This document shows, piece by piece, positions 14,883 to 56,642 of a stretch of DNA of 64,000 bases (position 1 is its first letter; each line of letters starts with the position of its first letter). Position numbers and translations under genes: made by a program. Below the pieces are notes generated by a model. The model saw only the letters and a list, made by a program, of their open reading frames with translations. It searched no databases and was not told the origin of the DNA. The stretch is taken from positions 124,001 through 188,000 of the forward strand of contig JAQSYP010000005.1 in the NCBI GenBank assembly GCA_029256085.1, read 5' to 3'. This DNA is from Caryophanales bacterium (GTDB lineage Bacteria > Bacillota > Bacilli > CAJFEE01).

Positions 14883-15075
14883 CAAATCAAATTTGATTTG
14901 CCGAAACTGCTCGCTTTCCGCGGGCACGGCCTCAACTAATTTTTGCAAGTTTCACACTTGCAAAAATGGATTTTCGGCTCGTGCTGTTCCCGCTGGAGTC
15001 GAGCAGTTTTTCCTTTTTCCCTAATTAAATGTCTTTATTAAAAGGGCTTGGAAAAGCCAAGTTTATTTTATTCAA
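14883..15075 (+). repeat. Family A structured repeat, copy A1
   Basis: The core, 14905-15008, has an outer stem (AACTGCTCG with CGAGCAGTT), inner GC pairs (GCGGG with CCCGC, GCACG with CGTGC) and a central TTTTTGCAAGT/ACTTGCAAAAA hairpin. An 18-base perfect palindrome (14883-14900) precedes it. A tail with GGCTTGGAAAAGCC and AAGTTTATTTTA follows to about 15075. Copies A2 and A3 have nearly the same arms with different loops. The 316-base gap 14879-15194 holds nothing else recognisable. Confidence 0.85.
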
Positions 15076-18633: not shown

Positions 18634-18641
18634 ATTAAATA

Positions 18642-18820
18642 TACACTCGCAAAAACTGCTCGCTTTCCGCGGGCACGGCCTCAACTAATTTTTGCAAGTT
18701 CCACTTGCAAAAATGGATTTTCGGCTCGTGCTGTTCCCGCTGGAGTCGAGCAGTTTTCAGATTCGTGTAATAAAATAATATTCTCTTTTTAAAGGACTTG
18801 GTAAAGCCCATTCTTTTAAT
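18642..18820 (+). repeat. Family A structured repeat, copy A2
   Basis: The long stem starts with ACAC paired to GTGT (18644-18768) and continues through AACTGCTCG/CGAGCAGTT (18654-18662 with 18747-18755) to a TTTTTGCAAGT/ACTTGCAAAAA hairpin with only a TCC loop. A tail like that of A1 follows to about 18820. The rest of the 362-base gap (18634-18995) shows only AT-rich DNA that may contain the promoter of the next operon. Confidence 0.85.
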
Positions 18821-22603: not shown

Positions 22604-23983
22604 ATGCAAAAACGAGATGAAGTGATTGTAGAAGTTGGTCAAAGATTTCCTTTAACAATCAAGAAACTAGGAATTAATGGTGAAGGTATAGGATACTTCA
22701 AAAGAAAAGCAACCTTTATAGAAGGAGCTCTTCCTGGAGAAGAAGTCGTAGCAGAGGTGACAAAATCTAATACTAATTTTATTGAAGCAAAACTAATTAA
22801 AGTAAGAAAGCCTTCCGAATACAGAGTAAAAGCAGACTGTGATATTTACGATAAATGTGGTGGATGTCAGATTAGGCATATGAGTTATAAAGCACAATTA
22901 GAAGAGAAGAGAAGTATTGTTCTTCAATCGTTGGAGAAGTACATGCCAAATAGTTCAGACAAGATTGAGGTCAGACAAACAATTGGGATGGAAAACCCTA
23001 ATGAATACCGAAACAAAAGTCAACTTCAAGTAGGAAGTATTGGTGGTGAAATTGCGCTTGGACTTTACCAAGCAGGCTCCCATGTACTCCAAGATTTAAC
23101 GGAATGTAATGTTCAAAACCCTGTCCTGAATAGTATAAACAAAACAATAAAGACACTAATTAGAAAATATAAAATACCAGTCTATAACGAAAAACGTGAA
23201 ACTGGAATATTAAGAACTGTTGTAACTAGGGTGAGTACCTCACACAATAAAGCTCAAGTCACTCTAATTGTTACTAAGAATCAAGTGCCGAGCTTAGATT
23301 CTTTTATTAAAGAGTTAGTAAGACGACATCGCGAGGTAGTATCGGTATTTATTAATATTAATCCTGAGAAAACTTCACTTATTTTTGGAAATAAAACAGA
23401 AAAAGTATATGGTAAAGATGTTATTCCTCAAGAATTGGGTGATATTAAGTTCGACTTATCTCCACGATCGTTTTTTCAATTAAATCCTGAACAAACTATA
23501 AAGTTATATCAAGAAGTTGAAAGTGCATGCAAATTGACTGGTAAAGAAAACGTAGTTGATGCCTATTGTGGTGTTGGAACAATTGGACTGTGGTTAAGTA
23601 AAAACGCAAAAGAAGTACGTGGAATGGATACTATTCGTGAAGCGATTGAAGATGCAAAGAAAAACGCTGAATTAAATGGAAAAGAGAATGTTACATTTGA
23701 AGTAGGCACAGCAGAGCACTGGGTACCTCGTTGGATCAGCAAAGGCTGGAATCCAGATGTTGTAGTAATTGATCCTCCGCGAACGGGCTGTGATTCTAAA
23801 TTATTAGATACTTTACTTACCTCAAAAGCTAAACGAATCGTTTACGTATCTTGTAATCCATCTACCTTAGCTAAAGATTTAGCTATTTTAACTAAGAAGT
23901 ACAAAGTTAGCTACATCCAACCAGTTGATATGTTCCCAATGACCGGCCATGTTGAAGCAGTTGTACTACTAGAAAGAATTTAG
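22604..23983 (+). CDS. rlmD: 23S rRNA (uracil-C5)-methyltransferase, RlmD/TrmA family
   Basis: An N-terminal TRAM domain (about residues 5-65) is followed by an Fe-S cluster motif (Cys79, Cys85, Cys88 in CDIYDKCGGC, and Cys168), then a Rossmann methyltransferase domain with VVDAYCGVGTIGLW. The catalytic segment VSCNPSTLAKDL has nucleophile Cys417, and VIDPPRTG precedes it. The enzyme would make m5U in 23S rRNA using SAM. In B. subtilis the neighbour of yfjP is yfjO, a paralogue of RlmCD (YefA), so yfjO is the positional equivalent and the exact uridine target is not certain. Length 459 aa is normal. A strong terminator follows. Confidence 0.9.
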   Translation: MQKRDEVIVEVGQRFPLTIKKLGINGEGIGYFKRKATFIEGALPGEEVVAEVTKSNTNFIEAKLIKVRKPSEYRVKADCDIYDKCGGCQIRHMSYKAQLEEKRSIVLQSLEKYMPNSSDKIEVRQTIGMENPNEYRNKSQLQVGSIGGEIALGLYQAGSHVLQDLTECNVQNPVLNSINKTIKTLIRKYKIPVYNEKRETGILRTVVTRVSTSHNKAQVTLIVTKNQVPSLDSFIKELVRRHREVVSVFININPEKTSLIFGNKTEKVYGKDVIPQELGDIKFDLSPRSFFQLNPEQTIKLYQEVESACKLTGKENVVDAYCGVGTIGLWLSKNAKEVRGMDTIREAIEDAKKNAELNGKENVTFEVGTAEHWVPRWISKGWNPDVVVIDPPRTGCDSKLLDTLLTSKAKRIVYVSCNPSTLAKDLAILTKKYKVSYIQPVDMFPMTGHVEAVVLLERI

Positions 23984-23997
23984 TTTAAATATAAACC

Positions 23998-24029
23998 AAA
24001 CCCCTCTTCCTTATTTGGAGGGGTTTTTT
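23998..24029 (+). terminator. Terminator after rlmD-like gene
   Basis: AAACCCCTC pairs with GAGGGGTTT (23998-24006 with 24018-24026), with more T's after. Confidence 0.85.
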
Positions 24030-24030
24030 G

Positions 24031-24137
24031 GCTAGTAGGAAAGTATAAACTTTGAATAGTTCATACTTTCCTAACGCATAAGTGCAACTACGGCTCTGAC
24101 GTCGCCTTAAAGGCTCGGCAATCGCCGAGTTTTTTTT
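24031..24137 (+). repeat. Family B structured repeat, copy B1
   Basis: An imperfect hairpin AGGAAAGTATAAAC...GTTCATACTTTCCT is followed by the near-constant AACGCATAAGTGCAACTACG, then a second hairpin (GCCTT with AAGGC) and a CTCGGCAATCGCCGAG stem ending in eight T's. Copies B2 and B3 share this layout. It directly follows the terminator of the upstream gene. Confidence 0.85.
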
Positions 24138-24207
24138 ATTTTCATTAATGCATATTATTTATCTAAACCATTAATAAAATGTGAAGTCTGCATAGGGAGG
24201 CAATACA

Positions 24208-24660
24208 TTGAAAAAACTTAATCCAGATAAGTTATATGTTGAATTCAGAAATAGTGTTACATTGACAGATCCAATACTAGGTCGTAAGTACACACTAACA
24301 CATTCGGATATTACATCAAACCTCTTTCTGACTCTAGATCTGCAGTTTGCCTATGACAAAATTAATACTATGAGAGATGAAGTGGTTGCTGAATGGAGAA
24401 TGAATAACGGATGTCTATTTCTTTTGGTCTATGTATATGTAGATAGCCAATCTGATCCAGTGATTTCTATTTCAGCATTGCGTAATGAAATCTTTAGACG
24501 TGAGTTGCCATTAGCTTTGGAAGCCATTATATACGGCGATAGAAATTTTTTTGTATCTCATCCTAATCTAGATTATGCATCAATTTGTATACATTTTGAC
24601 TCAATATACCCTGAATATAACAGTTTCGAAAACTGGGGAACTCCTAGGGATTATAAATAA
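24208..24660 (+). CDS. Staygreen family protein
   Basis: This 150-residue protein matches the bacterial staygreen (SGR) family along its length: LNPDKLYVEFRNSVT near the start, RKYTLTHSDITSNLFLTL, FAYDKINTMRDEVVAEWR, and the C-terminal RRELPLALEAIIYGDRNFF with YPEYNSFENWGTP. In plants SGR is the Mg-dechelatase that starts chlorophyll breakdown. Some bacterial homologues have been reported to remove Mg from chlorophyll derivatives in vitro, but the role in non-photosynthetic Firmicutes is unknown. The start is TTG at 24208 with AGGGAGG seven bases upstream. It stands alone, bracketed by family B repeats B1 and B2. Confidence 0.88.
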   Translation: MKKLNPDKLYVEFRNSVTLTDPILGRKYTLTHSDITSNLFLTLDLQFAYDKINTMRDEVVAEWRMNNGCLFLLVYVYVDSQSDPVISISALRNEIFRRELPLALEAIIYGDRNFFVSHPNLDYASICIHFDSIYPEYNSFENWGTPRDYK

Positions 24661-24686
24661 TTATGTCATTGAAAAATATTGAATAG

Positions 24687-24709
24687 CTCCCTTTCATGGG
24701 AGTTTTTTT
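24687..24709 (+). terminator. Terminator after staygreen gene
   Basis: CTCCC pairs with GGGAG (24687-24691 with 24698-24702), followed by seven T's. Repeat B2 begins immediately after. Confidence 0.75.
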
Positions 24710-24820
24710 AGCTACCAGGAAAGTATAAACTTCAGAGTAGTTCATACTTTCCTAACGCATAAGTGCAACTACGGCTCTGCCGTCGCTTTAAAAGCTCGGT
24801 AATCGTCGAGTTTTCTTTAA
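24709..24820 (+). repeat. Family B structured repeat, copy B2
   Basis: It has the same architecture as B1, with hairpin AGGAAAGTATAAACT/AGTTCATACTTTCCT, the constant GCATAAGTGCAACTACGGCT, and a second stem here CCG-CGCTTT/AAAGC-CGG. After it, 24821-24942 holds only AT-rich DNA with a likely promoter of the kinase gene. Confidence 0.85.
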
Positions 24821-42967: not shown

Positions 42968-43013
42968 ATTTCTTTGCTAGATGAAAATCACCGACTTGCA
43001 ATACTTTAGATCA

Positions 43014-43145
43014 CAATTACAATTCTATCGAGCACAATTTCGATTCTATCGAGCACAATTTCGATTCTATCGAGCACAATTTCGATTCTATCGAGCACAA
43101 TTTCGATTCTATCGAGCACAATTTCGATTCTATCGACCATATTGT
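43014..43145. repeat. 21-bp-period tandem array (six near-identical units)
   Basis: ATTCTATCGAGCACAATTTCG repeats at exact 21-base intervals, with ATTCTATCG starting at 43022, 43043, 43064, 43085, 43106 and 43127; degenerate edges lie on both sides. This is the best conserved of the three arrays. It lies between the module 1 terminator and the module 2 promoter. The remainder of 42968-43226 shows no gene. Confidence 0.95.
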
Positions 43146-43226
43146 CGAAAACCACTTGGTTATGCCAACTTTTTTATTTTCAAAATGATTCCATACACTT
43201 AGTCGATAAATGTCGAAAAAAAAGTA

Positions 43227-46473: not shown

Positions 46474-48192
46474 ATGTCTTGGTTTCGTAATTTAAAAATA
46501 AGAGTAAAATTAATTTCTTGCTTTATCGTACTTGCAATAATAACGGGTGTTGTAGGGTTTATAGGTATAAACTCAATGAGCACTATTAATAAGAATAGTG
46601 ATACTTTGTATAAAGGATATGCTGTACCAGCTTTAAACTTATCAAAAATCCAAACAGGGTTGCAAAATGTTCGTGCCAATCATCTACTTGCACTCTATGA
46701 TAATAGTAATGCAAATCTACAAACAAGAATTGATGAAATACAAAAAAATGTTGATTCAAATAATGAATTATTAAAAAAATATGAGACAACTATTACAGAA
46801 GAAGAAGATCAAGCTTTATATAATAAGGTAATGGAAAGTTTAGATACGTATAGAAATGAGCGTAATAAGAACTTCGATTTAATAAAAGCAGGTAAGAATG
46901 CTCAAGCATTAGCAGAGTTAGCTCCAGTTACTGATGCTCGAGTAAAGCTAGATGAAAATCTTCAAACTTTAATTGAGTATAATAACACGCAGGCTTCAAA
47001 CTATTTAAAAACAAGCAACGAGGATTTCAAGTCTCAAACAACAATAATGATTTCTGTAATTGCAATAGGTATTATTTTAGCTATTGTGCTTGGTTTTATA
47101 GTAGCTAGTATAATTAGTAAACCTATTAATAGTTTAGTAGGTGTTGCAAATAAAATAGCAGATGGTGACCTAGACGTAGAAGTAGACGTCGATTCAAAAG
47201 ATGAGGTAGGAATATTAGGTCAAGCATTCCGTCGTATGACTAATAATATAAATGATGTAATGGTAAACATTAATTCAGCTTCAGAACAAGTAGCTTCAGG
47301 ATCTAAACAAGTTTCAGATTCAAGTATGGCTTTATCTCAAGGAGCAACAGAACAGGCAAGCTCGATTGAACAACTAACAGTATCCATAGAAGAAATTTCA
47401 TCACAAACTAACAATAATGCTAAAAATGCAGCTCAAGCAAATGAATTAGCTGAAATGGCTAAGAAAGATGCAGTTCAAGGTAACGAACGTATGTCACAAA
47501 TGTTAAGTGCTATGGCAGACATTAACGAATCTTCTAGCAACATTTCAAAGATTATTAAAGTAATAGATGAGATTGCCTTCCAAACTAATATTCTAGCATT
47601 AAACGCTGCGGTTGAAGCAGCGCGCGCAGGTCAACACGGGAAAGGTTTCGCAGTAGTTGCTGAGGAAGTTCGTAACCTTGCTGCAAGAAGTGCAAATGCA
47701 GCTAAAGAAACAACTACAATGATTGAAGGATCAATCAAAAAAGTTGAAGATGGGACAAAAATCGCGAACGAAACTGCACAAGCATTGAATATGATAGTAG
47801 ATGGAGTAACAAAAGCAGCGACACTAGTAAACGATATTGCTGTAGCATCTAATGAACAAGCTTCAGGAATCTCGCAAATTACACAAGGAATTGCTCAAGT
47901 TTCAGAAGTAACTCAAACAAACTCAGCGACATCAGAAGAAAGCGCAGCAGCTAGTGAAGAACTTTCAAGTCAAGCTGAACTATTAAGTGAAATGGTTAGA
48001 AAATTTAAGTTAAAGCGTTCAAATAGTTCTTTCTCTAGAAAAGAAGATATAAATCCAGAAGTATTAAGAATGATAGAAAGAATGGGCAGTCAAGAAAAGC
48101 CAGTATCATACGTTGTAGATACTAAAAATCAAGTTGCATCATCAAAGACAATAGACTTAAGCTTAAGCGATAAAGATTTTGGTAAATACTAA
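46474..48192 (+). CDS. Methyl-accepting chemotaxis protein (module 2)
   Basis: This 572-residue receptor has the same build as module 1: helix 1, 4HB external domain ([23 protein letters not shown]), helix 2, HAMP, and a signalling hairpin with the same tip. The external domain diverges from the others, while the signalling domain is nearly the same as in the module 3 receptor. The tail is longer: [10 protein letters not shown] preceded by a linker of about 20 residues. AAGGAGG precedes the ATG. The ligand is unknown. A terminator and repeat B3 follow. Confidence 0.95.
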
Positions 48193-48206
48193 GTATTCAA
48201 TATTGG

Positions 48207-48232
48207 AGAGAGTATCTATGATACTCTCTTTG
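48207..48232 (+). terminator. Terminator of module 2
   Basis: AGAGAGTAT pairs with ATACTCTCT (48207-48215 with 48221-48229, five-base loop), followed by TTTGATTT. The T run is moderate, so read-through into cheR is possible. Confidence 0.65.
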
Positions 48233-48235
48233 ATT

Positions 48236-48350
48236 TAGCTAATAAGAAAGTATAAACTACTGCGCAGTTCATACTTTCTTAACGCATAAGTGCAACTACG
48301 GCTCTGCCATCGCTTTAAAAAGCAATGGCAATCGCCAAGTTTTCTTTAAG
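48236..48350 (+). repeat. Family B structured repeat, copy B3
   Basis: It has the same layout as B1 and B2. The second stem here reads CCAT-CGCTTT/AAAGC-ATGG, where B2 has CCG/CGG. It sits directly before the cheR Shine-Dalgarno site, so in any transcript crossing it the element would form the cheR leader. Confidence 0.85.
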
Positions 48351-56412: not shown

Positions 56413-56440
56413 AAAGGAAAGTATAAAATTCTAAATAATT
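56413..56440 (+). repeat. Family B remnant (first arm only)
   Basis: AAAGGAAAGTATAAAATTCTAAATAATT matches the opening arm of family B elements, but the rest is missing; a family A copy starts where B would continue. This suggests replacement or insertion. Confidence 0.5.
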
Positions 56441-56642
56441 ACACTCGCAGAAACTGCTCGCTTTCCGCGGGCACGGCCTCAACTAATTTTTGCAAGTTTA
56501 TTTAAAACCTTGCAAAAATGGATTTTCGGCTCGTGCTGTTCCCGCTGGGGAAATGTATACATTTCCTGCAGTTTTCTGCTTCGTGTAATAAATTAATTTT
56601 TCCTTTTTAAAGGACTTGGCAAAGCCAAGTTTATTTTATTTT
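56439..56642 (+). repeat. Family A structured repeat, copy A3
   Basis: The outer stem TTACAC/GTGTAA encloses GCAGAAACTGC/GCAGTTTTCTGC, then the same inner arms as A1 and A2 with a TTTTTGCAAG/CTTGCAAAAA hairpin and a longer loop. In place of the usual GAGTCGA a second palindrome GGAAATGTATACATTTCC is present. The family tail (GGACTTGGCAAAGCC, AAGTTTATTTTA) follows. The 412-base gap 56364-56772 holds only this, the terminator and B4. Confidence 0.85.

Follow-up and report, generated by a model that had tools for sequence, protein, structure and literature searches.

A short non-coding repeat of Bacilli lying behind intrinsic transcription terminators is probably a non-autonomous mobile element

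The stretch of DNA analysed here, a window of 64,000 nucleotides, carries on its + strand three copies, B1, B2, and B3, of a non-coding repeat of approximately 105–110 bp (Table 1), which is dispersed over the source genome and lies in most cases directly behind the intrinsic terminator of another transcript. Both this position and the terminator-like fold of the element's own 3' half are additions to the preliminary description of the family, which was based on the three window copies. The element is probably a non-autonomous mobile repeat that inserts after terminators and is itself able to form a predicted terminator; a mobile repeat favouring intrinsic terminators is the simplest account of its copy number, its patchy spread among genomes, its site, and its independence from the type of the neighbouring gene.

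The family itself was confirmed as real, since the core AACGCATAAGTGCAACTACGGCTCTG occurs in the window without a mismatch at positions 24073, 24754, and 48281, the mean in 100 shuffled sequences being 0. The element begins with (A/G)GCTA after a T-run and continues with a 5' hairpin of variable sequence, GGAAAGTATAAACT..AGTTCATACTTTCC, then CATAAGTGCAACTACGGCTCTG; its terminal sequence is CTCGGCAATCGCCGAGTTTTCTTTA. A conserved linker, CATAAGNGCAACTA, sits between the 5' hairpin and the 3' half, the T tail is usually interrupted by C (TTTTCTTTA), and the right end, CTTTA, is nearly constant. At the A.C mismatch of the 5' hairpin (columns 21-39) 55 of 63 cells are unpaired. In B1 the terminator fold is predicted to win over the nested hairpin, and a pattern scan called the element's own 3' terminator in this copy and in neither B2 nor B3. 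The staygreen-family gene lies between B1 and B2.

Table 1. Coordinates in the window of the three copies of the element, their parts, and the adjacent features
Feature	Position	Strand	Basis or remark
tRNA_U5-meth_tr/TRAM methyltransferase gene upstream of B1	22604-23983		Pfam
Intrinsic terminator, presumed landing site of B1	24003..24029	+	7-bp stem, T6
Copy B1	24031..24138	+	core match; covariance-model match, 103 bits
B1 5' hairpin GGAAAGTATAAACT/AGTTCATACTTTCC	24038..24071	+	A.C mismatch kept in most copies
B1 conserved linker CATAAGTGC	24077..24085	+	predicted mostly unpaired
B1 3' nested hairpin AACTaCGGC...GCCGAGTT	24086..24131	+	predicted fold
Alternative intrinsic-terminator fold of B1, with T tail	24109..24137	+	fold prediction, pattern scan
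Staygreen-family gene, 5' of the B2 terminator	24208-24660		Pfam
Intrinsic terminator, presumed landing site of B2	24685..24709	+	pattern scan
Copy B2	24711..24819	+	core and covariance-model match
MCP gene upstream of the B3 landing hairpin	46474-48192		
Hairpin with T-rich tail, presumed landing site of B3	48206..48230	+	passes the earlier, stricter rule, fails the pattern scan
Copy B3	48238..48348	+	cheR start codon 15 nt downstream

Other repeated sequences were also seen in the window. Another dispersed repeat (AAACTGCTCGCTTTCCGCGGGCACGGCCTCAAC...) is present three times, at 14890-14952, 18639-18701, and 56437-56499, with the latter two copies showing 86 and 92% likeness to the first. A chemotaxis gene cluster at 38687-59673 contains repeated stretches with 67–79% DNA likeness; its five tested genes encode two MCPs, a CheA-like kinase, CheW, and CheR, and a tandem array of the 21-base unit TTCTATCGAGCACAATTTCGA lies between chemotaxis genes at 42975-43148.

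In the source genome 78 sites lie within three mismatches of a 21-base core, compared with none for the reversed control, and the covariance model gives 84 matches at E ≤ 1.7e-7; hits weaker than these include the palindrome read on the reverse strand. Across the class, with scoring limited to nine candidates per genome, the model matched 18 of 398 genomes including the source, i.e., 17 of 397 others from 13 genera; with a second model each of these 17 genomes gave from 2 to 50 matches. In Caldibacillus thermoamylovorans the matches at E ≤ 0.001 number 69 and include many variants of smaller or greater length, and the sister genus (G001) has none at E ≤ 1e-4. Among 102 aligned relatives the linker CATAAGNGCAACTA is exact in 64 and within one mismatch in 82, and the 5' hairpin differs in both arms. 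No curated Rfam family matched at its gathering threshold, the best below it being AbsR28 with 21.4 bits of the 50 needed (E 0.03); text and topical searches of a limited literature collection returned no description of the element or its motif. Copies or pieces of copies follow one another head to tail at four loci (L096, L145, L258, and L183).

Carriage by phages or plasmids was considered and rejected: a phage search gave no match, six viral contigs with the linker motif gave no match to the model, two relatives had no plasmid match, and the single plasmid match, in CP053689.1 (labelled Arthrobacter citreus), is 84% over 62/70 bases at E 1e-8. Directly 3' of the element in seven copies (L097, L105, L111, L115, L124, L130, and L134) there is a second repeat (TCTGTGAAAATAAAAAATTG...) with more palindromes, which in several cases ends again in TTTCTTTA. 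The idea that this extension might hold a transposase gene was also dropped, the stretch shown being a further repeat with palindromes.

A hairpin followed by a T-run lies directly upstream, in the same orientation, of 63 of the 78 copies in the source genome, as against 8/390 shuffled flanks, 1/78 downstream flanks read on the other strand, and 9/390 random places at the same loci; an earlier, stricter rule gave 61/81, including three Caldibacillus copies. In other genomes a crude left edge gave an upstream terminator in 34/102 copies versus 12/510 shuffles and 7/100 downstream flanks, and setting the edge at the 5' hairpin, by which 25 of the 102 copies were dropped, gave 35/77 versus 2/385 and 3/76, respectively. 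By the rules used, 15/78 copies in the source genome and 42/77 elsewhere are without such a terminator. For 70 of 81 copies the nearest upstream ORF of 60 aa or more lies on the strand of the copy, and for 10 on the opposite one. The upstream transcripts are of all sorts, namely mRNAs, T-box leaders, 6S RNA, tmRNA, and tRNA genes: an Rfam scan of the surroundings of 80 own-genome loci placed copies after one 6S RNA, two tRNA clusters, another tRNA, and tmRNA, the last of these copies being 3'-truncated.

Copies also lie behind the T-box attenuators of three genes that we take to be ileS, leuS, and serS from the start of each protein. From the leuS T-box motif to the start codon there are 197 nt in the source genome with the element, and 69 (or 96 if counted to the ATG that follows the ribosome site), 86, and 94 nt in three element-free genomes, the comparison being one between genera. 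Among the comparison loci (L301–L307), none of which holds the element, L303 has a spacer of 239 nt with, by eye, another palindromic insert; an internal start codon was taken by the script for L305 and L306, the L305 spacer being short by eye as well. Rfam recognized the leuS T-box in L300, L302, L303, L304, and L307 and did not in the sister genus (L301), L305, and L306. In total, 13 own copies, those at leuS and serS included, have, starting within the next 60 nt, a same-strand ORF of 100 or more codons with a ribosome site.

The left-flanking tetramer of the 78 own copies is TTTA in 31, TTTG in 11, another in 28, and unread in 8, and the base after the right end CTTTA is T in 56% of 81 aligned copies. 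A simple TTTA target duplication was discarded, as the left base varies and the right end is constant. Converging ORFs of 100 codons or more whose stop falls no further than 150 nt from the right end number 26: 11 stop exactly, on the final three bases of the element, 8 stop within the element, and 7 past it; a narrower window gave 11/15. Since 8 of the 26 run into the element, the exact-stop figure partly reflects the reading frame, which by chance alone would give some exact stops. An antisense stop ends the left flank in all 10 exact-stop copies with a readable edge versus 31/60 others (Fisher p 0.004), and the two patterns together fit insertion just 3' of TTA.

The preliminary description had reported paired changes in both arms of the stems and had read them as support for selection for a folded RNA or DNA hairpin. 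The letters that it cited are present: CCG/CGG and GCTTT/AAAGC in B2, CCAT/ATGG and GCTTT/AAAGC in B3, and GCCTT/AAGGC in B1. In larger alignments the conclusion drawn from them is supported mainly in the 5' hairpin and, under a tree-aware null, does not reach significance for the 3' half. From 81 extracted copies (78 from the source genome and three from Caldibacillus), 64 were aligned (62 and two, respectively), the 17 left out being one identical copy and 16 that were short, truncated, internally duplicated, or misaligned. Double changes preserving the pair were found at 8 of 29 tested pairs, the shuffle mean being 3.1 with none of 500 shuffles as high, and in 23 cells against a shuffle mean of 6.4. 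The 5' hairpin holds six of these eight pairs; when partners were slid by 1–3 columns as a control, double changes also appeared at 2 to 7 pairs and in 2 to 13 cells. The RNAalifold consensus places all of its 12 pairs in the 3' part, omits the 5' hairpin, and has a covariation term of only −0.05. An arm-swap comparison of cross-genus copies, in which the partner was taken from a copy with a different arm, speaks for the 5' hairpin: all 10 bases pair with the own arm in 47/94 cases versus 146/1372 with a swapped arm, and 9/10 bases in 72/94 versus 585/1372. For the 3' half, tree-aware covariation on 133 sequences, drawn from 183 extracted copies after exclusion of 50 that were duplicates, were too short or long, or lacked a motif, gave no column pair below E 0.05 (best E 0.27), and same-branch co-changes were nominal only, among 1190 pairs.

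Two predicted folds compete in this 3' half, which can form either one nested hairpin or an intrinsic terminator; in 124/133 copies neither is more than 9 kcal/mol above the minimum, with median differences of 0.8 and 1.9 kcal/mol in two sets. The nested hairpin consists of the pairs AACT/AGTT, CGGC/GCCG, TGCCG/CGGCA, and GCC/GGC. The block described earlier as nearly constant and unpaired is indeed constant in the three window copies, and about half of it is predicted to be paired: its AACTaCGGC part pairs with GCCGAGTT through AACT/AGTT and CGGC/GCCG at the 3' end, and the remainder, approximately CATAAGTGC, can make a weak GCA/TGC pairing. The nested fold has four doubly changed pairs, reached by 4/500 shuffles, and 16 cells, reached by none of 500; its slid versions attain four pairs and at most seven cells, and 11 of the 16 real cells come from one pair. 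The tandem, attenuator-like fold (arms 1-2 and 3-4), which includes the terminator, was set aside as the sole fold, its two doubly changed pairs not exceeding those of shuffles (217/500 match them). One terminator pair (columns 38-49) is TA in 58 and CG in 56 of the 133 sequences, both sides differing between groups of copies. Variants of the 3' half occur as well. In a Caldibacillus subtype (L202, L203, L204, L205, L206, L207, and L211), GTGCTCTTGCGG replaces the GTGCAACTACGG of the others, the AACT/AGTT pairs are lost, and the terminator stem is kept in most. Eight own copies of 70–92 nt (L074, L106, L109, L120, L128, L130, L138, and L139) have no inner arms of the 3' hairpin and retain the outer arms and the T tail.

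These folds bear on the possibility that the element is a cis-acting regulatory RNA whose 3' half toggles between the terminator and the antiterminating nested hairpin, thereby regulating the gene that follows. The near-equal energies of the two folds, the TA/CG exchange within the terminator stem, and the 13 copies lying within 60 nt of a gene start, T-box-controlled leuS and serS among them, speak for such a switch; for 27 of 81 copies, however, the next ORF (at least 60 aa) is on the opposite strand, the doubly changed pairs of the tandem fold are readily reached by shuffles and those of the nested fold are equalled by its slid versions, with most of its cells contributed by one pair, and the eight shortened copies lack the inner arms. 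As an explanation of the family it is very unlikely. A regulatory function may have arisen at individual sites, because 13 own copies precede a gene start so closely; it does not account for the copies between convergent genes. A domesticated spare terminator or insulator, retained for catching read-through from the first terminator, would agree with the same-orientation position after a terminator and with the element's own terminator-like fold, called by the scan in B1. We regard this as rather unlikely: the own terminators of B2 and B3 escape the scan, the T tail is usually broken by C, the sister genus has no copy, and a strong terminator would block the synthetase genes downstream of T-box leaders. 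That the copies form a family of genes for trans-acting small RNAs is extremely improbable; the conserved linker and the terminator-like 3' end are features that small RNAs have, but the surroundings of B1, B2, and B3 show no promoter-like site on the + strand, most copies start directly 3' of another transcript's terminator, and no Rfam family matches at threshold.

A further proposal is that the repeat was moved by an IS200/IS605-like Y1 transposase since lost from this genome. Hairpins near both ends and TTTR/CTTTA junctions without a clear duplication would suit such an enzyme, and Y1 matches are commoner in genomes hosting the element (15/19) than in others (9/22; Fisher p 0.025, with one genome per species and kinship uncorrected). 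Against it, there is no Y1 match in the source genome or in hosts G055, G073, and G087, only fragments are present in the high-copy hosts G061, G081, and G338, and no match to the model of the element was obtained in the flanks of 30 Y1 loci, of which 20 lie in hosts. The Y1 transposase was therefore rejected as a resident mover; its past action, retained as a reading on account of the excess of Y1 matches in hosts, appears quite improbable.

The reading that we prefer remains a mobile repeat homing to terminators. A copy would be moved in trans by an enzyme recognizing the hairpins of the element and would be inserted behind a terminator, usually downstream of TTTA or TTTG; the terminator-like end carried by the element could limit the harm done and could serve as a further landing site for the next copy. 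The element might even be a bacterial counterpart of SINEs, a short structured RNA exploiting in trans a reverse transcriptase of the group IIC type that homes to terminators, and copied back behind intrinsic terminators; its bistable terminator end would allow it to sit even with a T-box switch on one side and an essential gene on the other. This elaboration is decidedly improbable. Where the element inserts seems to be set by a transcription signal, and it can form such a signal itself. Group IIC introns are known for the safe strategy of landing at transcription stop signals, and a non-coding element of approximately 105 bp that did likewise in many Bacilli, and was able to form a stop signal of its own, would be an independent case. 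Where it alters the spacer between an attenuator and an essential gene, it provides a natural test of tolerated termination.

Several known systems resemble the element in part. REP/RAYT sequences and IS200/IS605 miniatures are, in the portion of PMC3733652 available, likewise small palindromic non-autonomous repeats; the hairpins and the lack of a clear target duplication are further points of likeness, whereas a constant GTAG tag and a Y1 transposase in the own genome are missing. In the Bacillus cereus group, bcr1 (and bcr2-3) is intergenic, non-coding, MITE-like, and folded, with tens of copies per genome (PMC6542083, PMC3446304, both as excerpts), and in one of these excerpts a TTTAT motif is mentioned for bcr1. 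By those descriptions bcr1 is confined to the B. cereus group, whereas the element spans at least 14 genera, its own included; terminator targeting, proposed for the element, is not mentioned in those excerpts for bcr1. Bhal-1 of Bacillus halodurans, a 74-bp family with 36 matches listed in the part of Cozzuto 2008 (PMC2267715) at hand, resembles the element, as described there, in being a structured intergenic family in another Bacillus-like genome. Group IIC introns insert after intrinsic transcription terminators (PMC4424553, in an extract citing Robart 2007); although the element is only approximately 105 bp long, non-coding, and without an Rfam intron match at the gathering threshold, it shares with them the position behind an intrinsic terminator, seen in 63 of its 78 own copies.
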